From NCBI GenBank assembly GCA_005801385.1, contig SYEM01000315.1, positions 1 to 32,272 on the forward strand: a stretch of 32,272 nt of DNA, in the 5' to 3' direction. This stretch comes from Verrucomicrobiales bacterium (GTDB taxonomy: Bacteria > Verrucomicrobiota > Verrucomicrobiia > Limisphaerales > UBA9464). The notes beneath the pieces are model-generated. The model worked only from the letters and a program-made list of their open reading frames with translations, made no database searches and had not been told where the DNA came from. Shown one piece after another: positions 4,901 to 29,981 of the stretch. Within the stretch, counting starts at the first letter, position 1. Each line of letters starts with the position of its first letter. A program made the translations under genes and the position numbers.

Positions 4901-7858
4901 CTACTTCGGGGTGGATCCCGGGGTGCCGCCCGATTGCAGGAACGCCAGAAGGTCCAGGATCTCGTCCTGACTGAAGTGATTCAGCAACCCACCCGGCATC
5001 GGGGAGACCGTCGAGGCGGACCGGTCCCGGATGTCCACCTTCAGCACCCGGGTCGGACGGCCCGACAACGGATTCACCACCACCTCCAACGCGTCAGGCG
5101 TCTCCCCAGCGATCGCGCCTGTGATCACATCCCCGCTCTTCAGGGTGATCACCTGGGTCTGATACTGGGGCGGGACGCTCGCGTCGGGCTCCAGGATCGA
5201 CCTCAGCAGGTCCGCAGCCCCATAGCGGGATCCCACGCTCGTCAGATCGGGACCGGTCGATCCCCCCACGCCGTCGAACCGGTGGCAGGCGTCGCATCGG
5301 GCCTCTTGGTAGACCGTCTGGCCCTGGAGCAGGTCCCGTCCCTGGCTCAACTGGCCGAGGACGGGCTGAAGATCCGCAACGGTCCACTCCTTCACCTTCT
5401 CCCGGAACCGGGCCTTGGTCTGGGGCAGCTTCTGCTGCGCCATCATCCCGGCCAGCGCGGCCTTCTGGTCGTCGGGCACCTTCTCGAAGGCGTCCTGACG
5501 CAGGTAGCGGAGGTAGTTGTCGAAGCTGTAGCCGCTCGACGGCTTGAGTCCGACGTCAGCAAACCACTGGACCATCTGGCGCGGGAAGGCGGTGCTGCGC
5601 TGGGCCATCGGATCCTCCTTCGGTCGGCCGAACCACTGGAAGTAGCGCTGGCGGAGCTCGGGGGTCCATCCCGCGGTCACGATCCGCAGGGGTGCCTGGA
5701 AGGCCATCTGGTCCTCCTGCGTGGTTGCGGCGTCGCGGAGAGCGAGGGCCTTGGCCACGACGTCAGGGGCATTGAGCGCTGCGAGCAGGGCGAGGAGTTC
5801 CAGGTCCTTGGCCTTGGACCCGGTCGGGAACTGGCCCGACAGCTTCTCGAGGGCCTGGGCACGGATGGCATCAGAAATGCCATGACGCGCGAAGCTCACC
5901 TCGATGACACGGAGCTTGATCAGGTAGTCCGTCTCGTTGAGGGACGACAGCGTCCACCGGCCGAGACCTTGGAGCAGGGGGCCCTGATCCTCGCGACTGC
6001 CGACCCGGGCCAAGGCGAGCCCGGCGGTCAGGCCGGTCGTGGACTGGGTTTCCGAGAGGACCTTCTCCCGCCACTGGGCCGCCGGAATCGCCTCGAGCGC
6101 CACTCGGGCCGCATGTCGGACGGTGGCGTCCTCATGTCCGAGGGCCGGCCAGATCGACTCCACCGTCCCCGGGGCGGCCGACGGATGGAACCCCTCCAGC
6201 CGACGCCGCTCCATTCGGGCCGTCTTCTCCGGGGTCATCACCGCGATCGACAAGCTCTTCGGTTCGGTGGACTCCGAGCCCGTATAGCGGACCCGATAGA
6301 GTCCCGACGGAATGCCACGTCCTCCGGTGATGAAATACAGGGCGCCGTCGGACCCGATCACAGCATCGGTCACATTGAGCGGTCGTCCACGGACGAGTGT
6401 CTCGAACGTGCCGGTGTAGCTGGAACCCTTTGGTTGCAGGTGGAACACCAGGATCCGGCCCATCGTCCAGTCGAGCCCGATCATCGCCCGCTGATAGCGA
6501 TCGGGGAACTTCGCCCCCTTGGCCGAGATTAGCCCCGAGGGCGAACCCAGTCCCGCATCCACGACGGCCGGAAGCGAGTCGGCGTAGTAGGACGGCCACT
6601 TCAAGGACCAGTCCCGGTAGCCGTGGTCCACCCCGCTCACGAGGTGGAGCAGTCGATTCGGACGGTACCACGGCACGCCCCAGTCCCCCTCGCTGTCGCT
6701 GTCGAAGGCGAACAGCTCGCCATCGACATTGAAGGCGATGTCGTAGGCGTTGCGCTGCCCAGCCGCGAAGAGGGCGACGGTCTGTCCGTCGGGTGAGATC
6801 CGGAGGACGTGTCCGCCGGGTGGGGTGAGACCGGGTTTGGGTCGGGATCCGTCGGACACCGGGGGCAGGACCGAATCGATGGCGAAATGCTGGACCGGGG
6901 AGCGGGCGGGCAGCTGGGGGTCCACCTGGACCATGTTGCCGGCGACCACATACAGGTTGCCGTCGGGTCCTTGGACAATCGCGTGGGCCCCATGCTCGCC
7001 GGGCGCCCCGTTCTTGTCCTGCGGCGACCAGCGATGGAGGACCTCGACCCGGTCGTACTGGTCATCCCCGTCGGTGTCTGTCGTGCGATACAGCTGATAC
7101 CCCTCGGGTCCATGGGCGTTCGCGTAGAGGACATTCGACACGGCGAGCAGTCCCATGGCGCCGCGGAGCGGGGTGGTCAGCGTCTCCATCCGGGCGATGC
7201 CGCCGGCGGGGTCGAGGCTCAGGCGGAGCAGGGGCTCGGCGCCCTGCGGACTGATCAGGAGCCGGCCCCTGGGGTCGACGGTCATGGAGATCCAGGAGCC
7301 TTCGCCGAGGTCGGCGCTGTGGACGAGGTCGACCCCGAAGTTTGTGAGGGTCTTGAGGCTGGTGGCGGCCGGGGGCTGGGGGGCGAGCGGGACCTGTCCC
7401 CACGGCGCCACCCCGACCGGGCCGAGGGAGGTGGCGGGCTTCCAGCCATCGGTGCCATTGGCCGAGGTCTCCCAGGTCCCGTCGGTCACGACCCCCTGGC
7501 TCAGTCCATTGGTCTGGATCATTTCGAGTCGGACGAGGAGTCCCGCGGCGCCGGCGGCATTGCGGGCCTTGACCTGAATCAGGTGGGGGCCGGGGGGGAA
7601 GTTGCCGGGAAGGTTCCCCCGGGTGGGCTGGTCCCAGAGGTTGTTCTTGAGCTGGTGCCGGTCGTCGAGGTTGAGCTCGGCCTGGTTGTCGGCCGCCAGG
7701 ATCACACTGACCTTGTTGACGCCGGGCGGGGCCTGGAAGGACTTGCGGAAGTACCGGATCTCCTGGTCGGCCGGCGGTCCGCTCCAGATCCATTCGGGCT
7801 TCGGGATCGCGGCGAGGATCTGGGTGAGGGTGGCCAGGGCAAGCAGGGTCCGGAGCAT
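4901..7858 (-). CDS. Secreted PVC-type haem-binding (CxxCH) beta-propeller protein
   Basis: A 985-residue exported protein with a signal peptide (residues 1-17). Residues ~20-150 look like a beta-sandwich sugar-binding domain (PEWIWSG, YFRKSFQ). Residues ~170-525 form a propeller of the membrane-bound dehydrogenase type, with VTDAVIGSDGALYFITGG near its end and acidic loops DTDGDDQYD (261-269) and DSDSEGD (386-392) that could bind calcium. Residues ~560-830 are HEAT-like helices. The C terminus carries the cytochrome domain with CDACH (855-859) and a likely distal Met in SPMPGG (M954). This architecture is characteristic of Planctomycetes and Verrucomicrobia and is usually linked to periplasmic oxidation of sugars or alcohols. 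Substrate and electron acceptor are unknown. Convergent with the deacetylase gene. Confidence 0.9.
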   Translation of the reverse strand: MLRTLLALATLTQILAAIPKPEWIWSGPPADQEIRYFRKSFQAPPGVNKVSVILAADNQAELNLDDRHQLKNNLWDQPTRGNLPGNFPPGPHLIQVKARNAAGAAGLLVRLEMIQTNGLSQGVVTDGTWETSANGTDGWKPATSLGPVGVAPWGQVPLAPQPPAATSLKTLTNFGVDLVHSADLGEGSWISMTVDPRGRLLISPQGAEPLLRLSLDPAGGIARMETLTTPLRGAMGLLAVSNVLYANAHGPEGYQLYRTTDTDGDDQYDRVEVLHRWSPQDKNGAPGEHGAHAIVQGPDGNLYVVAGNMVQVDPQLPARSPVQHFAIDSVLPPVSDGSRPKPGLTPPGGHVLRISPDGQTVALFAAGQRNAYDIAFNVDGELFAFDSDSEGDWGVPWYRPNRLLHLVSGVDHGYRDWSLKWPSYYADSLPAVVDAGLGSPSGLISAKGAKFPDRYQRAMIGLDWTMGRILVFHLQPKGSSYTGTFETLVRGRPLNVTDAVIGSDGALYFITGGRGIPSGLYRVRYTGSESTEPKSLSIAVMTPEKTARMERRRLEGFHPSAAPGTVESIWPALGHEDATVRHAARVALEAIPAAQWREKVLSETQSTTGLTAGLALARVGSREDQGPLLQGLGRWTLSSLNETDYLIKLRVIEVSFARHGISDAIRAQALEKLSGQFPTGSKAKDLELLALLAALNAPDVVAKALALRDAATTQEDQMAFQAPLRIVTAGWTPELRQRYFQWFGRPKEDPMAQRSTAFPRQMVQWFADVGLKPSSGYSFDNYLRYLRQDAFEKVPDDQKAALAGMMAQQKLPQTKARFREKVKEWTVADLQPVLGQLSQGRDLLQGQTVYQEARCDACHRFDGVGGSTGPDLTSVGSRYGAADLLRSILEPDASVPPQYQTQVITLKSGDVITGAIAGETPDALEVVVNPLSGRPTRVLKVDIRDRSASTVSPMPGGLLNHFSQDEILDLLAFLQSGGTPGSTPK

Positions 7859-7966
7859 GGGGGAACTCTATCCAGAGGTCGTCGGATGGAAAGAGGCCTG
7901 TAGGGGCTCAAGTTTCGCTCCCGGAACGTTGCCGGCCGGCGGTTTTCGTGCACTGCTTTGGACACA
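7859..7966. promoter_or_regulatory. Divergent intergenic region
   Basis: About 108 bp separate the haem protein (minus) from the repeat protein (plus), so divergent promoters are expected here. GCCGGCCGGC is present, but no convincing promoter hexamers or operator were recognised. Confidence 0.3.
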
Positions 7967-10261
7967 GTGAACAGTCGCATCACATCGGTGTGTCTGGCTG
8001 CGGTCGCCGGTGGGGCCGTGGGGTATCTTGCGGGTTCGGGCCGCAGGTCCGAGGCACCCCCTGCGGGAGTCGCCGTGACGGCTCCCGCCGCCCCGGTCGC
8101 CCGTGTCGGGAGCTCCGCCGCCGAGCGTCCGACGGCGCCCGAGGTGCTGGTTCGACCCGACCAGGTGGCGGCTCTGCTGACTGGAATCCAGAAGGAGCCG
8201 GATCCTGAGCTCCGACGCGACCAGCTCCGGGTGTTGGCCGCCCGGATCGCCCCCTCCGATGCCGCGGCCTGTCTGGACATCGCGCAGTCGATCCTGACCC
8301 CGGAATACCTGTACGTCTTCCGCTACCGGCTTCTGGAACTGTGGGCGTCCCGGGTGCCCCAGGCCGCCCTCGCGTGGACGCAGGCGCTTCCCAATCGGGA
8401 GGATCGCGAGTCGATGCTCGATGCGGTCCTGCATGGATGGGTCCTGTCGGATCCGTCAGGGATGGTGCGCTGGTTCTCGACCCTGCCCAAGGGACCGGAC
8501 CGCAAGGCGGCACTGACCCCGTTGGCGCTGGCGCTGGGCCGGTTTGCCCCCGAGGTGGGGCAGGCGTTTCTCAAGGGTTTCCCTGAATCCAACGACCGCC
8601 GCGAGTTCCTCATCGAATTCCTGGGGGCGTGGGCCGACATCGATCCCAGAGCGGCGGCCCGCTCGGTGACACTTGAGACGTTCGTGGGCCAGGAGTCGCG
8701 CCTCGAGTTCCTCCTGACGAAGCTGGCGGGGGTCGACGTCGAGGCCGCCATCGCCTTCATCGGCGAGCGTCCCACCAGCCGCCTCCGGCTCCAACAGCTC
8801 TGGAGGCCGATCCTTCAGGCGGTGGGCCAGAAGGATCCGGCAAAGGCCGCCCAGATCGCGTCCCGGATTCCGGATGGGCCCCACCGGAACGAGCTTCTGC
8901 CGGAGGTGGGCCGGGATTGGGCGGCGAAGGATCCCCGGGCGGCCCTGGCCTGGTTGGAGCAGATGCCCGACACCCCGACCCGGGCGCGTCTGGCCGTGGC
9001 GGTGGCCCAAGGGATGGCGTCGGAGTCCCCGGAGGCGGCTGCGGCCCTCCTCGCCCGCACGAAGCTGGGTCCGGGACAGGCGTCGGCGTTCCGCGATGCC
9101 GCCATGGCCTGGGCCGAGAAGGATCCCCGTGCCGCCTTTGAGTGGGCCTCGAAGCTCGACCATCCGCAGGGGCGGGTGAATGCCTTGACCGGCCTGATGC
9201 AGGCCTGGGCCCAGGAGGATCCCCGGGCGGCGTCGGCCGCCGCGCTGGGGCTGTCGCCCGGACAGGCCCGGGACCAGGCCCTGCAGTCGGCCGTCACCCA
9301 GTGGGTGGAGGTGGATCCCAACGCCGCGCGGGAATTCGTCCAGCAGCTCCCGCCGGGTCGGACCCAGCAGAATGTGGTGGGCCAGCTCGCCTGGCACATC
9401 GGCAACAAGGATCCCCAGGCGGGCGTGGCCCTCGTGGACGCCCTCCCCACGGGTCCCGCTCGCACCATGGCGGCGGCGTCCCTCGTAGCCGGGTGGTCGG
9501 CCTCGGACGTCGCGGGTGCCGCCCAGTGGGTCCAGTCCCTCGAGGAAGGCCCGATGAAGCAGCAGCTCCTCGCCTCGGTGGTCGAGAACTGGGGCGAACA
9601 GGACTTCGCCGGTGCCGCCCGAGTCCTGGATGCCAACCCGGGGGCCGGGTCGCCCTCGGCCGCGACAGGGCTCGCAAGTCGATGGGCCCAGAGTGATCCC
9701 GATGCGGCCGCGGCCTGGGCGCGGACCCTGCCCACCGGTGACCTGCAGGATACGGCGTTGGCGGCGGTCTCGATCTCCCTGGCGCAGTCCCATCCCGCGA
9801 AGGCCGCCGAACTGGCGCTCAGCCTACCCCCAGACCGCCAACGCGAGGCCGTCGTCGGCATCGTCAGTCACTGGTCGGGTGAAGACCCTTCGGACGCCGC
9901 CGGATGGGTCGGGCGATTCCCACCCGGGGAGCTGCGTGACCAGGCCGAATCGGTCCTGGTCCAGCAATGGTCCAACCAGGATCCCTACGCCACGGCGGCC
10001 TGGCTCAAGGACCAGCCGCAGGGCGGCATGCGCGATGCCTCGACCGCGGCCCTTGCCCGCAACCTCCGCGAATACGACCCCAACGCCGCCTCCGCCTGGA
10101 TCGAGTCCATGCAGGACCCGACCCAACGCCAGCAGGCGCAGGAGGAGCAGTTCCGCTGGTGGTCCCAGCAGGATCCGGCCTCGGCGCAGTCGTGGCTCGA
10201 CAGGAGCTCGGTGCCCGCCGAGGTGCGTCAGCGTTGGGTGGAGCAGCTGCAGAAGCCGTAG
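7967..10261 (+). CDS. Membrane-anchored or secreted protein with about 20 W-x3-DP helical repeats
   Basis: No known family was recognised. The N terminus has one hydrophobic segment (residues ~4-23) followed by an Ala/Pro-rich linker to ~60, suggesting a signal anchor and an extracytoplasmic body. From residue ~122 to the end the protein is built of about 20 units of 31-32 residues with the pattern W-x3-D-P-x-A-A-x2-W-x3-L-P-x-G-x2-R. Examples are WAAKDPRAALAWLEQMP and WSNQDPYATAAWLKDQP. Each unit looks like a helical hairpin, so the whole is probably a solenoid for protein binding, comparable in shape to HEAT or TPR proteins. The GTG at 7967 is preferred; a TTG at 7958 adds three residues. 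The function cannot be inferred. Confidence 0.85.
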   Translation: MNSRITSVCLAAVAGGAVGYLAGSGRRSEAPPAGVAVTAPAAPVARVGSSAAERPTAPEVLVRPDQVAALLTGIQKEPDPELRRDQLRVLAARIAPSDAAACLDIAQSILTPEYLYVFRYRLLELWASRVPQAALAWTQALPNREDRESMLDAVLHGWVLSDPSGMVRWFSTLPKGPDRKAALTPLALALGRFAPEVGQAFLKGFPESNDRREFLIEFLGAWADIDPRAAARSVTLETFVGQESRLEFLLTKLAGVDVEAAIAFIGERPTSRLRLQQLWRPILQAVGQKDPAKAAQIASRIPDGPHRNELLPEVGRDWAAKDPRAALAWLEQMPDTPTRARLAVAVAQGMASESPEAAAALLARTKLGPGQASAFRDAAMAWAEKDPRAAFEWASKLDHPQGRVNALTGLMQAWAQEDPRAASAAALGLSPGQARDQALQSAVTQWVEVDPNAAREFVQQLPPGRTQQNVVGQLAWHIGNKDPQAGVALVDALPTGPARTMAAASLVAGWSASDVAGAAQWVQSLEEGPMKQQLLASVVENWGEQDFAGAARVLDANPGAGSPSAATGLASRWAQSDPDAAAAWARTLPTGDLQDTALAAVSISLAQSHPAKAAELALSLPPDRQREAVVGIVSHWSGEDPSDAAGWVGRFPPGELRDQAESVLVQQWSNQDPYATAAWLKDQPQGGMRDASTAALARNLREYDPNAASAWIESMQDPTQRQQAQEEQFRWWSQQDPASAQSWLDRSSVPAEVRQRWVEQLQKP
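8330..10258 (+). repeat. Tandem ~31-32-codon repeat array inside the helical repeat gene
   Basis: About 20 degenerate units. At the DNA level the most alike units share a block similar to AAGGATCCCCGGGCGGCC (near 8931, 9118, 9217 and elsewhere), encoding (K/E)DPRAA. The central units are better conserved than the first five and the last two, which suggests growth of the array by internal duplication. Confidence 0.8.
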
Positions 10262-17195: not shown

Positions 17196-17723
17196 ATGCG
17201 ATGTCCGAAATGTGGCGGGCAGGATGACAAGGTCATCGACTCCCGTGCGTCCCGGGAAGGGGCGGTGATTCGGCGTCGTCGGGAATGTCTCCTGTGCCAG
17301 CATCGGTACACGACCTACGAGGAGATCGAGCGGGAGGAGTTCTTCGTGGTGAAGCGGGATGGCCGACGGGAGCCGTTCTCCAAGGACAAGCTTCTGACGA
17401 GCATCCAGAGGGCCTGTCAGAAGCGATCGGTGTCGGAACAGGCGATCGCGGATCTTGCAGAGCGGGTGACGAACGATCTGACCGAGCGGTTTGATCGTGA
17501 GGTGACCGCGCAGGCGATTGGTGAGCGGGCGATGCGGGAACTGCGCGCGCTGGATCCGGTGGCGTATGTCCGGTTCGCCAGCATCTACCGGGAATTCCAG
17601 GAGGTCGGGGAGTTCGTGGAGGAGGTCAACCGGCTCGCAACCCTGCCGGTGCCCGACCAGCGTCAGATGGCCCTCCTGGCCGAGCCCGAGGATGGGGAGG
17701 GGACGGCAGGAGGGAAGGGATGA
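17196..17723 (+). CDS. nrdR: Transcriptional repressor NrdR
   Basis: NrdR is the zinc-finger/ATP-cone repressor that shuts down ribonucleotide reductase genes when dATP is high. The four zinc ligands are present as CPKC (3-6) and CLLC (31-34), with the DSR-x-S-R-EG-x3-RRRREC segment between them. The ATP-cone spans ~49-139 and begins VVKRDGRREPFSKDKL. DPVAYVRFASIYREF (~121-135) is the highly conserved end of the cone. At 175 residues it is about 20 longer than usual, the extra part being an acidic/Gly tail. The ATG at 17196 is fixed by the zinc finger. Its stop codon overlaps the start of the next gene (ATGA), which implies translational coupling. Confidence 0.96.
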   Translation: MRCPKCGGQDDKVIDSRASREGAVIRRRRECLLCQHRYTTYEEIEREEFFVVKRDGRREPFSKDKLLTSIQRACQKRSVSEQAIADLAERVTNDLTERFDREVTAQAIGERAMRELRALDPVAYVRFASIYREFQEVGEFVEEVNRLATLPVPDQRQMALLAEPEDGEGTAGGKG

Positions 17724-18280
17724 TCGCCCTTCGACGGGATTGCCTCCTGATCGCGTCCAAGGACGGACCCTTCATCCCCTGCTCGATGGAGCACCTGACG
17801 ATCGAGTTCGTCGGGCCGGCGTCCCAGATGCTGGATCCGGAGGTTCTACGGCATGCCTCTGCCGCGGTGATCCACTATTTCAAGGTCGAGCTCGGTTGCG
17901 AGGTGGTCAGTACCAGCCAGTTCACGGAAGCCCTGACCCAGGTGCTGGCGGGACTCGGGGTGTTTCTCGAACCCAACCCGGATTCCGGAGACGAGTCCTC
18001 GACGGTCCGGGTCCTGGACCTGTGGACCCTCGCCTCCGGGGCCAGCCAGCTCGGTGAGCTGGAGTTCTGTTGGCGGCTTCGATCGCTCCTCCGGGAGTTC
18101 CTTAGCGAAAAGCCTGAGCGCATCGAATTCCGAGGCCTCCGTGGCTGTGTCAAGGTCCTCGCCGACCGTCAGCACTGGTGTGAGACCTGCGATCGGGTGG
18201 AGACCTGGATCGTCGATCTGGTGCGGGGCTGGTATGCCCGGGAGCCGGCCGCTGCAGGAATCCCGCTGGTGATGAGCTGA
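17720..18280 (+). CDS. Unknown protein translationally coupled to nrdR
   Basis: A 186-residue cytosolic protein of no family I recognise. It has no signal peptide or membrane segment. Residues ~40-83 look helical (VLRHASAAVIHYFKVELG, FTEALTQVLAGLGVFLE), and residues ~98-130 are another helical pair (VLDLWTLASGASQLGELEF). A lone CETC pair (154-157) is seen near the C terminus, followed by a helix rich in W (ETWIVDLVRGWYA). The ATG overlaps the nrdR stop by 4 bp, a strong sign of coupled expression. Codon use matches its neighbours. A link with nucleotide-reductase control is only suggested by position. Confidence 0.75.
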   Translation: MIALRRDCLLIASKDGPFIPCSMEHLTIEFVGPASQMLDPEVLRHASAAVIHYFKVELGCEVVSTSQFTEALTQVLAGLGVFLEPNPDSGDESSTVRVLDLWTLASGASQLGELEFCWRLRSLLREFLSEKPERIEFRGLRGCVKVLADRQHWCETCDRVETWIVDLVRGWYAREPAAAGIPLVMS

Positions 18281-18676: not shown

Positions 18677-19354
18677 TTAGCCGCCGAACGGGTGGGTAGC
18701 GCGCCAGAGCAACCAGGTCTGTTCCTCGGCGTAGGCGGTCGGTCGGGGGTAGCTGATCGCCTCGGTGATGTCGCCGCTCAACCCGTCCTGTCCCAGCACC
18801 GCGGCGGCCCGGTTGAGAAGGGCCTTGGGACTGTGCGCCACGACGCATTTCACGAGGTTTCGGTATTTCTCCCCCAGATTGTCGGGCTCCGACGGATTCG
18901 TGAACTCCGGCATCTGATCGAACATCAGGCGGTCAAGGGTCGCGAGGAGTCGCTGCTCGGTGCCGTGGATGAAGATCTCCAGCTTGAACTCCCGCTGGTC
19001 GAATCCGGCGCAGACGACCGACACATCGGCCCAGGGGGCGTCACAGGCCCTTCCGAGCGCATCGAACACGACGAGCCGATCGTCGGTGCCCTGTAGGACC
19101 GTGAACAGGGTCGGTTCCGGGACCCTGGGGAGTTCCGATTCCGGAGCGACCTCGACCTCGACGCCCTCCTGTCCGAGGCTGCCCTGGAGAAAGAGGGCAT
19201 CATCGAGGTCCAGGTTCCGGGCCAGGAGCCCGAAGGCATCGTCCGCGACAAACCTGGCATCGGCCGGGGTGAGTCCGCGTCCGGAGGCGAAGGCGCGGTG
19301 GAGGGCCTCGACGGGTGGGCGTTCGAGGGTCTTCTGGATGAGGGCGTAGGGCAT
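18677..19354 (-). CDS. Unknown cytosolic protein
   Basis: A 225-residue protein with no recognised domain. The first ~45 residues appear helical (YALIQKTLERPPVEALHRAF, LTPADARFVADDAFGLLA). The middle contains beta-like segments (PTLFTVLQGTDDRLVVFDALG, VSVVCAGFDQREFKLEIFIHG) and the end contains EKYRNLVKCVVAHSPKALL and WLLWRATHPFGG. The ATG at 19354 is chosen because the frame upstream runs into the interspersed repeat at 19428-19617 and is low quality. There is no signal peptide or membrane span. It converges with the HIT gene, which ends 17 bp away. Confidence 0.65.
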   Translation of the reverse strand: MPYALIQKTLERPPVEALHRAFASGRGLTPADARFVADDAFGLLARNLDLDDALFLQGSLGQEGVEVEVAPESELPRVPEPTLFTVLQGTDDRLVVFDALGRACDAPWADVSVVCAGFDQREFKLEIFIHGTEQRLLATLDRLMFDQMPEFTNPSEPDNLGEKYRNLVKCVVAHSPKALLNRAAAVLGQDGLSGDITEAISYPRPTAYAEEQTWLLWRATHPFGG

Positions 19355-25994: not shown

Positions 25995-27902
25995 ATGGAA
26001 CGTCCCCTGAACAAGACCGGCCTGATCAACAGCCTGCTGTTGCTGGTGGCCGGCGTGACGCTCGCCGTCTTCGCCCGCCAATCGGGATTCGCGACCGGGA
26101 TGGTCGCGGTTGAATTCCTCGTCATCGCCGCCCTGACGGCGTTAATGGCGTGGTTCCAGATGACCCTGGAGTCACGCGAGGAAGCGGAACGGCTCGAGCT
26201 GGAGGGCCTGGCCAAGGGGCGGCTCGACTCCAGCCTGTTCGCCGAGAACGTGGCCAACATCTCCCCGGCCCGTCGGTCGCGACAGCAGTTCGAGAAGTGG
26301 GTCCTGCCCGCCTTCACCTTCCTCCTCATGGTCCTGGAGGGCATCGGGGTCTGGTACTTCTGGGACCAGATCAAGCCGGGGACCGAAATCGTCTCTAACC
26401 CTTCGTCCGCGGCGATCACCCTGGCCATCAACGCGGCCGTCGCCTTCGTCCTGCTCCTTGTCGGCAAGTACAGTGCCCGGCTGGCGCAGCTGGAGGACAG
26501 TCGCCTCCTGCGTCCCAGCGGCTCGGCCGTGATGCTGGGGGCGGTGGTCTCGGCGGTCGCTGCCCTGTCCGCCGGACTGGTCTGGGCTGGGTTCCAGCAG
26601 TGGGATCGCTACCTGGCCTACCTCCTCGTGGGGCTCCTGGCCCTGGTGGCGGTCGAGACCTTCTTTGCGTTGGTCCTCGAGATCTACCGTCCCCGCACCA
26701 AGGGTCCGGCTCCGCGCCTGATCTATGAGAGCCGTATCATTGGCCTGCTGGGGCAGAGCGGGGGACTCTTCAGCACGGCAGCCCAGGCGCTCGACTACCA
26801 GTTCGGGTTCAAGGTCAGCGAGACTTGGTTCTATCGGTATCTGGAGCAGTACGTCTCGAGCTTCCTGCTGATCTGGGTCGGCATCCTGTGGGTGTCCTCC
26901 TGCCTCGTGGTGATCGATCCCCAGGAGGAGGGCGTGTTGGAACGGTTCGGTCGGACGATCCAGCCGCCGCTGCAGCCAGGCGCGCATTTCAAGCTGCCGT
27001 GGCCGATCGACGCCGTGTATCGCTACGACACCCGCGGCATCCGGGGATTCCTCATCGGAGCGATCCCTGATCCGGAGCTGGAGAAGAACCGGGTGCTGGT
27101 CTGGACCCGTCCCCACTACAAGGAGGAGTTCAACATGCTGGTGGCCAGCTCGGAGCAGCTCACCAGCCGCACGTTGTCGACCGGGGACGCCCTGCCCGGA
27201 CAGCAGGCCGTGCCGGTCAACCTCCTGACGGTCAGCATCCCGGTCCAGTACCGGATCCGGAACGTCGATCAGTGGGCCTACCAGGCGAGCGATCCCGAGG
27301 AGCTGCTCCAGCGTCTCGCGACCGGCGCTGTGGTAAGGTATCTGGTCAGTGTCGATCTGAACAACATCATGAGCTTCGGCCGTATTGAGGCCGCGCGGTC
27401 GTTGCAGGATCGGATCCAGAGGGAGGCCGACGCCCTGAAGCTGGGGGTCGAGGTGGTCTTCGTGGGGCTCCAGGACATCCATCCTCCGATGGGCACCAAG
27501 GAGAACCAGGTGGCCGCCGCCTACGAGCAGGTCATCGGGGCCATCGCGGAGAAGGAGGCCAAAATCCTTGAGGCCGAAGGCTACCGCGCGGAGACGCTTC
27601 CCCTGGCGCAGGCCCGTGCGGTCGTCACCAACAATGTCGCCCGGGCGTCCGCGGTGGTCCGGGTCGAGGACGCCGCCGGCCGGGCCGCCCAGTTCGTGGG
27701 ACAGCTCAAGGCGGATGCGGCCGCTCCGAGGGTCTACCGCCAGCGGACCTACCTCGACACCCTGGCCAAGGCCTCGGCCGGGACCCGCAAGATCGTCATC
27801 GGCCCGACCAACACCAGCGACATCCTGATGTTCAATCTCGAGGACAAGCTGCGTCCCGACCTCGAGGGCATCGCCATCGACACGCCGCCGGCCAAGAAGT
27901 GA
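25995..27902 (+). CDS. SPFH/band-7 protein with an N-terminal seven-helix membrane domain (HflK-like)
   Basis: A 635-residue membrane protein. The N-terminal half has seven predicted membrane helices (~9-28, 33-55, 104-123, 139-157, 177-198, 206-229, 286-306). The last of these is followed directly by a SPFH/PHB domain (~305-500) that begins VVIDPQEEGVLERFG and has PPLQPGAHFKLPWPID, as in HflK. A helical coiled region (~505-575) with EKEAKILEAEGYRAETLPLAQA follows. Ordinary HflK has one helix and about 400 residues, so the extra membrane domain is unusual. SPFH proteins form oligomeric cages that organise membrane domains and, in HflKC, hold the FtsH protease. It lies ~60 bp before the HflC-like gene. 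Confidence 0.88.
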   Translation: MERPLNKTGLINSLLLLVAGVTLAVFARQSGFATGMVAVEFLVIAALTALMAWFQMTLESREEAERLELEGLAKGRLDSSLFAENVANISPARRSRQQFEKWVLPAFTFLLMVLEGIGVWYFWDQIKPGTEIVSNPSSAAITLAINAAVAFVLLLVGKYSARLAQLEDSRLLRPSGSAVMLGAVVSAVAALSAGLVWAGFQQWDRYLAYLLVGLLALVAVETFFALVLEIYRPRTKGPAPRLIYESRIIGLLGQSGGLFSTAAQALDYQFGFKVSETWFYRYLEQYVSSFLLIWVGILWVSSCLVVIDPQEEGVLERFGRTIQPPLQPGAHFKLPWPIDAVYRYDTRGIRGFLIGAIPDPELEKNRVLVWTRPHYKEEFNMLVASSEQLTSRTLSTGDALPGQQAVPVNLLTVSIPVQYRIRNVDQWAYQASDPEELLQRLATGAVVRYLVSVDLNNIMSFGRIEAARSLQDRIQREADALKLGVEVVFVGLQDIHPPMGTKENQVAAAYEQVIGAIAEKEAKILEAEGYRAETLPLAQARAVVTNNVARASAVVRVEDAAGRAAQFVGQLKADAAAPRVYRQRTYLDTLAKASAGTRKIVIGPTNTSDILMFNLEDKLRPDLEGIAIDTPPAKK

Positions 27903-27963
27903 TCCCAGTCCTGCACCATCCGACCGAACCCAACCCCTTTCTGAATTCCCGAGCCCATCGCCC

Positions 27964-28866
27964 GTGAAAAACTCCCGTCTCTCCTTCGTCGTCGGAGGCC
28001 TGCTGCTCCTGCTGTTCATGGCCCTCCTGTTCTGCTTCCAGGTGCGCACCACCGAGGTGGCTGTCGTGACCACGTTCGGCCGGTATTCCCGGGACATCGC
28101 CGAGCCCGGTCTCTATTTCCGGCTCCCGGTGCCGATCCAGAGCGTCTACCGCTTCGACAACCGCCTGCAGAACTTCGAGCGGAAGTTCGAGGAGTCGACC
28201 ACGCGCGACGCCCGGAACCTTCTGGTCACGGTCTACGTGGGCTGGCGCATCGAGAGCGCCCGCAAGTTCCTCGAGCTCTTCGGGGGTGACACCGCCAAGG
28301 CCGAGAACACCCTCGAGGGACTTGTCCGCAACGCCAAGAACGGTGTCATCGGCCGCTATGTTTTCAGCGACCTCATCTCCCCCGATCCCAAGGCGGTGAA
28401 GTTCGACCAGTTCGAGGCCGACGTCCTGAAGGAGATCGCTGGTCCCGCCTCCGAGAAATACGGCATCAAGATCGAGCTGGTCGGCGTCAAGCAGCTCGGT
28501 CTTCCCGAGGCGATCACCGGCAAGGTGTTCGAGCGCATGCGTGCCGAGCGCGACCGCCTCGTGAAACAGTACCAGGGAGAGGGCAACGCCCGAGCCCAGG
28601 AGATCCGCAGCGAGGCCGATCGCAAGCGCGACGAGGTCCTCGCCAAGGCCCGCGCCGACGCCCTCCGGATCATGGGTGAGGCCGATGCCCAGGCCTCCAA
28701 GGAGCTGGCCATCCTCGAGAAGAACCCCGGCCTGGCCGTGTTCCTCTATCAGGTCAACGCCCTCAAGGAGTCGCTCCGGGAGCGGACCACCCTGTTCCTC
28801 GACCAGAAGACCGCGCCCTTCAACCTCCTGTCGGGCGACCGGTCGAAGCCCACGGCCAACCCCTGA
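27964..28866 (+). CDS. HflC-like SPFH/band-7 protein
   Basis: A 300-residue SPFH protein with one N-terminal membrane helix (~8-27, SFVVGGLLLLLFMALLFCF). The PHB domain begins VRTTEVAVVTTFGRYSRDI and has EPGLYFRLPVPIQSVYRFDNRLQ, the HflC form. The C-terminal coiled-coil has EIRSEADRKRDEVLAKARADALRI in part and ends near FNLLSGD. It is probably a partner of the HflK-like proteins on either side, forming a mixed oligomer at the inner membrane. Start GTG at 27964, with no clear ribosome site. The gene ends 5 bp before the next one, so the two are certainly co-transcribed. Confidence 0.9.
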   Translation: MKNSRLSFVVGGLLLLLFMALLFCFQVRTTEVAVVTTFGRYSRDIAEPGLYFRLPVPIQSVYRFDNRLQNFERKFEESTTRDARNLLVTVYVGWRIESARKFLELFGGDTAKAENTLEGLVRNAKNGVIGRYVFSDLISPDPKAVKFDQFEADVLKEIAGPASEKYGIKIELVGVKQLGLPEAITGKVFERMRAERDRLVKQYQGEGNARAQEIRSEADRKRDEVLAKARADALRIMGEADAQASKELAILEKNPGLAVFLYQVNALKESLRERTTLFLDQKTAPFNLLSGDRSKPTANP

Positions 28867-28871
28867 GCGCC

Positions 28872-29981
28872 ATGGCGGATCCCCTCTCCCCCAAGAAGCC
28901 GATCCGGCTGACGCCGACCGCCGCCACCAGCGCGGATGATGCGTCCAGCCAGGCGCTCAACGAGGCGCTGGGCAGCAGCTTCCTGCTCGTCCGGATCCTG
29001 GTGTTCGTGCTGATCGGCGCCTTCGTCTTCTCCTGCGTCTTCACGGTCGAGCCCAACGAGGTCGCTGTCGTCCTGAGATTCGGCAAGCCCCGTGGCACCG
29101 GGGCCGAGGCGCTGCTGCGGCCCGGCCTCCAGTGGGCCCTGCCGTATCCGATCGACGAGATCGTCCGGATCCGTACCGGCGAGACCAAGGTCGTCCGCGC
29201 CACCAACGCCTGGTACGCCGTTGCCCCGGGCGAGGAGGCCATCGGCTCCGAACCCATGGCCCAGGCGACGCTCTCGCCGGGTGTGGATGGCTACACGCTC
29301 ACCAGCGACGGCAATATCCTGCATGTCCGGGCGGCGATGAAGTATCGGGTGGCCGATCCCGTCGCGTACGCCTTCCGGTTCCAGGATGTCACCAACCTGC
29401 TCGCCAACGCCCTGAACAACGCCATCTATCAGAGCAGCGCCCGCTTCACTGCCGATGACGCCCTCTATCTTGAGCCCACGGCCTTCCGGGAGGCCATCTC
29501 CACCCGGATGCGTGGCCTGATCGAGCGCTTCACCGTGGGAATAGCGGTCGACGAGATCGTGGTCGAGACCCGGACGCCGCAGTACGTGAAACAGGCGTTC
29601 GACTCGGTGATCTCGGCCCAGCAGGACCGTTCCAAGAAGGTGAACGAGGCCGAGGGCTACTACAACGAACGCGTCCGCACCGCCGAGGGCGAGGCCGCCG
29701 CGCTCCGGGCCGGCGGCATCGTTTCGAGCAATGCACTGGTCCAGGCGGTCTCCGCGGAGGCCAAGTACTTCCAGGATCAGCTGCCCTATTTCGAGCGCGC
29801 CCCGGATCTGCTCCAGACCCGGCTTCGGATCGAGGCCCTGGCCCAGATCCTCACCAACGCTCCCGACAAGTTCTTCATCCCGGATCGTGCCGACGGTGCC
29901 TCGCGGGAGATCCGGATCCAGATCAACCGGGAGCCCCAGGCCCCGGTCCGCCGCGATCCGAACGCGCCGACCAACCCATAA
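28872..29981 (+). CDS. HflK-like SPFH/band-7 protein
   Basis: A 369-residue SPFH protein. A ~35-residue Pro/Ala-rich cytosolic tail precedes one membrane helix (~37-58). The PHB domain begins FTVEPNEVAVVLRFGKP, with LLRPGLQWALPYPIDEIVRI, the HflK form. The C-terminal coiled part has VNEAEGYYNERVRTAEGEAAAL. It ends in a Pro/Arg-rich tail. This is the third SPFH gene in a row and the second HflK-like one, so the locus may have undergone duplication and specialisation. It starts 5 bp after the HflC-like gene. The next gene, the metal ATPase, begins ~40 bp later. Confidence 0.9.
   Translation: MADPLSPKKPIRLTPTAATSADDASSQALNEALGSSFLLVRILVFVLIGAFVFSCVFTVEPNEVAVVLRFGKPRGTGAEALLRPGLQWALPYPIDEIVRIRTGETKVVRATNAWYAVAPGEEAIGSEPMAQATLSPGVDGYTLTSDGNILHVRAAMKYRVADPVAYAFRFQDVTNLLANALNNAIYQSSARFTADDALYLEPTAFREAISTRMRGLIERFTVGIAVDEIVVETRTPQYVKQAFDSVISAQQDRSKKVNEAEGYYNERVRTAEGEAAALRAGGIVSSNALVQAVSAEAKYFQDQLPYFERAPDLLQTRLRIEALAQILTNAPDKFFIPDRADGASREIRIQINREPQAPVRRDPNAPTNP

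Follow-up and report, generated by a model that had tools for sequence, protein, structure and literature searches.

The gene at 7967..10261 (plus strand) of the window, the 32,272-nucleotide stretch of a Verrucomicrobiales genome analysed here, encodes a 764-residue protein that consists largely of tandem units with a W-x3-DP motif. The locus raises the question of whether this repeat belongs to a known family, and what a membrane-anchored protein built from it might do.

Architecture of the repeat protein

The open frame runs from a GTG start at 7967 to a stop codon at 10259-10261 and gives 764 residues; a TTG at 7958 is a possible alternative start. At the N-terminus, residues 5-23 (7979..8035, plus strand, like all segments of the gene) form a hydrophobic segment, the putative anchor, which is recognised by hydropathy, in the alignment and as a helix of low confidence in the AlphaFold2 (AF2) model. 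Its residue Gly19 is invariant in the aligned family members (24/24). The segment is followed by a Pro/Ala-rich linker (residues 24-63, 8036..8155) that looks disordered and has low AF2 confidence up to residue 56, and then, in the model, by two leading helices ahead of the regular units (residues 64-95, 8156..8251). An anchor and a linker had both been proposed in the initial annotation, and both are present. The rest of the protein (residues 97-764, 8255..10258) comprises 21 tandem units of 29-33 residues each. The C-terminal units 10-21 (9122..10258) are better conserved, with a mean relative entropy of 1.83-2.07 versus 1.46-1.80 for units 1-9.

The repeat period is strictly 32 residues. 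Self-identity of the protein is 0.217 at a lag of 32 residues and 0.189 at a lag of 64, whereas 300 shuffles reach no more than 0.124 at any lag from 20 to 69. The W-x3-DP motif occurs 10 times, compared with a mean of 0.11 and a maximum of 3 in 2000 shuffled proteins. The unit consensus is D-P-x-A-A-x2-W-x3-L-P-x-G-x2-R-x2-A-L-x2-L-x3-W-A-x2, in which the Asp-Pro, Ala-Ala, Trp, Leu-Pro, Arg, and second Trp each keep a fixed place in roughly half to most of the units. A unit profile, circular in that it is derived from the same units, recovers 20 of the 21 segmented units. The open frame, the periodicity and the motif counts confirm the large repeat array described previously, and the earlier figure of 20 units of 31-32 residues is correct to within one unit. 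The claim that the motif residues hold fixed positions stands for the consensus but not for the exact W-x3-DP, which is restricted to those 10 occurrences.

Compared with the sister species, the gene has a dN/dS of 0.132, indicating purifying selection. The dN/dS values of five neighbouring genes are 0.018-0.092. Therefore, the repeat gene evolves faster than its neighbours, yet it is under selection.

Predicted fold and structural comparison

Based on the 24-member alignment, AF2 predicts a regular, all-helical superhelix (mean pLDDT 84.7, pTM 0.58), in which residues 1-56 are unreliable and no strand of three or more residues is present. In each predicted unit, a helix of about 9 residues leads through a loop into one of about 17 residues, and the Asp-Pro corner mostly has a single non-helical residue. 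A fragment modelled alone (residues 386-608) reaches a pLDDT of 89.6 and a pTM of 0.79. Both predictions agree with the large solenoid suggested from the letters of the DNA.

When the full-length model is compared with solved structures, PPR10 is found with a Z of 12.6 at an rmsd of 29.3, together with other PPR proteins and HEAT proteins. The fragment matches the HEAT repeats of SF3B1 (Z 10.6, rmsd 5.1, 214 residues), and it also matches Integrator, PPR, alphaRep, and designed armadillo proteins, with all 50 rows lying within about 2.6 Z units of one another. HEAT, ARM, and PPR chains score at Z 8-10.6 for the fragment, and there is no clear winner. Foldseek finds nothing for the fragment at E<=0.001; the best match has an E of 8.4e-3, and the lytic transglycosylase Slt is among the weak rows (E 0.062). 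As modelled, the protein is an alpha-solenoid, and these comparisons found no close solved relative.

Relation to known repeat families

The 764-residue protein has no significant match in Pfam-A, NCBIfam or the PDB sequences, the last of which give nothing below E 0.019. In the Pfam scan at E<=10, no TPR, HEAT, Sel1 or PPR profile matches it. In searches of its own genome at E<=10, TPR_8 retrieves 70 matches and HEAT_2 retrieves 78, none of which is the repeat gene (contig C292). Among 24 family members, HEAT_2 appears in one (E 0.074), and Sel1 and PPR are absent among the 25 of 38 Pfam families listed for these members. Searches of open-licence literature turned up no account of the W-x3-DP repeat. 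The initial annotation had called the repeat unnamed and had pointed to a significant match with a known repeat family as contrary evidence. Such a match was looked for in Pfam-A, NCBIfam, the PDB sequences, and the TPR_8 and HEAT_2 searches and was not found, and the claim stands. The alpha-solenoid is a known kind of protein; the repeat family itself is unnamed in the libraries searched.

The repeat could nevertheless be a known one that has drifted in sequence, in which case the protein would be a divergent TPR-like or HEAT-like solenoid serving as a housekeeping scaffold. TPR proteins are likewise built of tandem helix pairs of 30-odd residues that form a superhelix, usually for protein binding, and the succession of large and small residues in the W-x3-DP unit presumably recalls that of TPR. 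However, the TPR unit has 34 residues and two near-equal helices, whereas the 764-residue protein has a 32-residue period, unequal helices with a single-residue Asp-Pro corner, and two Trp per unit. HEAT and armadillo repeats are the nearest locally in structure, through the match to SF3B1, but they are tied with other families, their units are longer (about 37-47 residues), and HEAT_2 does not match the protein. The helix-pair superhelix and its HEAT, ARM, and PPR look-alikes speak for such drift; against it are the profile scan at E<=10, the two genome searches that do not contain the gene, the unequal helices, and a best Foldseek value for the fragment of only 8.4e-3. We therefore regard drift from TPR or HEAT as possible but doubtful.

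A relation to the eukaryotic nucleoporin ELYS was considered and rejected. The Pfam ELYS model scores in 20 of the 24 members at E<=1, in some of them above the whole-protein cut-off. These scores are sums of weak fragments: taken singly, six of eight members match, one of them with a stretch that passes alone, and the 764-residue protein has no match in the Pfam scan. We regard the ELYS link as a repeat artefact. Summed fragments that exceed the whole-protein cut-off are a trap for automatic annotation of family members.

Distribution, orthology and unit order

Relatives of the protein are present in 41 of 58 near genomes, its own included, and in at least 77 of 288 genomes drawn across Verrucomicrobiota, a lower bound because the phylum search scored at most three candidates per genome. 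Across 84,980 named species scanned, each of the 24 confirmed loci bears the title of Verrucomicrobiota or of one of its genera or families; the scan used two short peptide patterns only and does not imply absence elsewhere. A plasmid search gives no match to the repeat protein. Within Verrucomicrobiota, an abundant phylum about which little is understood, the family is widespread.

The own genome carries one further family copy (C82). In a tree of 36 members, the repeat gene belongs to a supported set of 14 rows, drawn from 14 genomes of its bacterial family, and the other own copy falls in a separate set of 10 rows. Since the set of 14 contains one row per genome, the repeat gene is an old single-copy orthologue across the bacterial family. 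In one genome, the orthologue (L018 / L046, G008:C88) is broken by three internal stops; intact copies exist elsewhere. Three members (L039:5186-7567, L043:2964-5381, and L069:5432-8017) share a similar basic tail with Arg-Arg-Arg-Tyr near the C-terminus, which is absent from most members.

The 24 aligned members are co-linear, with a hydrophobic N-terminus, a linker, units of about 32 residues and conserved C-terminal units, and the 764-residue protein fits this plan. In all 23 comparisons, units at the same position are closer to each other than units at different positions (0.26-0.91 versus 0.17-0.20), a figure that the alignment itself somewhat favours. Outside the core positions, the same-position values are 0.13-0.24 versus 0.10-0.13 elsewhere in the nine rows that are distant among the ten tested, and the difference is small in L053, L052, and L041. 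The same-position likeness indicates that the unit order is old and kept, and that each place in the array is maintained. A recent tandem expansion of the units was considered and rejected, given the better match of each unit to its own position in other proteins. With its strict 32-residue period and units of fixed order, the repeat would be of value to structural studies as a new solenoid.

Paralogue expansion and sigma-factor fusions

Some genomes contain many family match segments (segments rather than genes): 94 in G308, 66 in G235, 53 in G300, 33 in G311, and 24 in G229. In 60 stretches read from these five genomes, 57 contain family genes, 98 in total, 50 of which are in G308. The wider family is unexpectedly large, reaching 50 genes in the stretches of a single genome, and is partly tied to sigma factors. 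Family genes in the expanded genomes are shorter (median about 430 residues). In G308, nine consecutive family genes of about 330-430 residues each lie on the same strand (L127, G308:C1:232000-246000) and form a tandem gene array.

Six paralogues from three genomes combine an ECF sigma factor, a hydrophobic segment and the repeats in one uninterrupted frame: L143, L146, L148, and L178 in G308, L162 in G235, and L193 in G311. In a seventh sigma fusion, L203 of G311, the repeats are weak. Pfam Sigma70_r2 and Sigma70_r4 are found in the four fusions scanned with them (L143, L146, L148, and L162), and TIGR02937 (sigma70-ECF) scores above its cut-off in the five fusions scanned with it (the same four and L193). 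The repeat profile matches the remainder of the fusions; E-values for these repeats, as for the paralogue reading and the neighbour clustering, come from small sets and are relative only. In an independent search of eleven genomes with one fusion as the query, the repeat gene is recovered through the repeat part at an E of 5.7e-11. In L146 and L178, the segment between the sigma factor and the repeats is weakly hydrophobic and lies below the hydropathy threshold. In each of the six fusions, the next gene overlaps the fusion gene, by 4 nt in five and by 1 nt in L146, and encodes another repeat protein. One such partner, L148_2, has a lipobox. A permissive pattern flags 11 of the 98 paralogues, and about five have a credible lipobox signal peptide.

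ECF sigma factors with C-terminal extensions are known. In PMC8999054, ECF42 carries a TPR extension, and in the ECF52 protein SCO4117 transmembrane and periplasmic parts follow the sigma factor. The six paralogues of the 764-residue protein have an extension of this kind and would share with ECF52 the order sigma, membrane, outside. In the fused paralogues, the extension is made of a different repeat, and the overlapping partner gene also encodes W-x3-DP repeats. The 764-residue protein differs further in having no sigma part: Pfam and NCBIfam scans find neither sigma-70 region 2 nor region 4 in it.

Nine further loci (L179, L181, L183, L190-L192, and L200-L202) encode an ECF sigma factor, a hydrophobic segment and a long C-terminal extension that the repeat profile does not match; two of these, L183 and L192, belong to the own genome (G000). 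There is apparently a wider class of membrane-tethered sigma factors in the genomes examined, and the W-x3-DP repeats are seemingly just one type of outer module among several.

Membrane topology and function

A hydrophobic N-terminus is present in 60 of 64 family proteins longer than 330 residues, and in 90 of the 98 family genes of the five expanded genomes, a set that shares members with the 64. In the 60 proteins, 90 Lys/Arg and 18 Asp/Glu precede the anchor, and 140 and 67, respectively, lie in the 15 residues after it. These charges do not decide the orientation of the 764-residue protein. The fusions bear on it indirectly. Since a sigma factor must be cytoplasmic, a single membrane crossing after it would place the repeats of the fusions outside; the weakly hydrophobic segments of L146 and L178 count against this. 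By analogy with the fusions and with the lipoprotein-like paralogues, we infer that the repeats of the 764-residue protein also lie outside the cytoplasmic membrane.

The reading that we prefer, and to which we give about an even chance, is that of an alpha-solenoid with a single-pass anchor in the inner membrane. Its N-terminal segment would cross the inner membrane once, and the flexible linker would hold about 21 helix pairs on the outer, periplasmic side, where they would act as a scaffold or receptor arm that binds at least one partner protein. Protein binding is suggested by the predicted solenoid fold. Conservation lies mainly at the core repeat positions (relative entropy 2.29 versus 1.36), and therefore no binding surface or conserved patch stands out. 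In some paralogues, an ECF sigma factor carries this same module of anchor, linker and repeats, and a further anchored repeat protein is encoded alongside it; there the repeats would probably be the half of a transmembrane gene switch that lies outside and senses a signal or binds a partner. The role of the 764-residue protein may differ from that of the fused paralogues, because it lacks both a sigma domain and a conserved neighbour.

The N-terminus could instead be a cleaved signal peptide, releasing a soluble periplasmic or outer-membrane solenoid that binds envelope components with an Slt-like superhelix. It is short, basic, and hydrophobic, as such a peptide would be, some paralogues are lipoprotein-like, and Slt is among the weak Foldseek rows. 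However, the hydrophobic stretch is about 15-21 residues long and often glycine-rich with Arg/Lys behind it, and an AxA-like motif is present in only 19 of the 60 proteins. Moreover, the homologous segment is internal in the fusions and must cross the membrane there if the model is right. We consider cleavage unlikely. Less probable still are repeats that face the cytoplasm and act as a membrane coat or tether, like the membrane-coat-like proteins of the PVC superphylum. According to PMC2799638, those proteins are solenoid-bearing, typical of the superphylum and mostly uncharacterised, and one of them is located at internal membranes; the summed ELYS matches in most family members point the same way. 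The same text gives them an N-terminal beta-propeller followed by the solenoid, whereas the 764-residue protein has an N-terminal membrane anchor and its AF2 model has no beta-propeller. Of the eight members taken singly, only one has an ELYS stretch that passes alone, the 764-residue protein has no ELYS match, and the sigma fusions favour an outside location.

The anchored periplasmic solenoid may be part of something larger. Tentatively, Verrucomicrobiota may possess a phylum-specific receptor toolkit of dozens of outer-facing arms made of the 32-residue repeat, paired arm to arm, with some wired into membrane-tethered ECF sigma factors and the 764-residue protein as an old single-copy member. 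If true, this would be a repeat-based transmembrane gene-control system. The sigma-factor fusions are the first handle on the function of the repeat family and are open to experiment. A role in anti-phage defence was also considered; a single PADLOC model gives a 22-residue match at E 0.0032, which we do not take as meaningful.

Gene neighbourhood and the divergent haem protein

The divergent neighbour of the repeat gene (4901..7858, minus strand) encodes a 985-residue PVC-type haem-binding protein with a CxxCH haem domain (TIGR02603, E 2.1e-27) and a weaker TIGR02604 match. At its N-terminus (residues 18-169), this protein matches part of the alpha-rhamnosidase model NF041573 at an E of 1.4e-10, far below the cut-off of the model. 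The initial annotation had suggested that the two genes share a promoter region. They do diverge across a gap of 108 bp (7859..7966), and the divergent pair is also present in the sister species G001, with protein identities of 92% and 96%, but the rest of the suggestion fares poorly: the gap has no sigma-70-like promoter match, the nearest haem-protein homologue and the repeat gene are on different contigs in G003, which is of the same genus, and of 40 loci searched by tblastn, only two have a homologue close to the repeat gene. The genomes examined, furthermore, carry many proteins with this haem domain. A functional link between the two proteins is unlikely, and a specific partnership in electron transfer or assembly, which retention of the pair in the sister species might suggest, is highly improbable.

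A conserved neighbourhood was sought by gene clustering in 41 regions and rejected, with no neighbour family in more than four. Likewise, Pfam finds no family in more than four among the 78 neighbours scanned (67 immediate and 11 second, out of 142 within two genes). A simple gene caller missed the haem gene in L033 and family members in L049, L050, and L063; the haem-gene neighbourhood check was redone by tblastn and genome search. Elsewhere in the window, two called genes of 186 and 225 residues (17720-18280 and 18677-19354) have no Pfam match at E<=0.001, and 25995-29981 contains three consecutive Band_7/SPFH genes (635, 300, and 369 residues) followed by a P-type ATPase gene.
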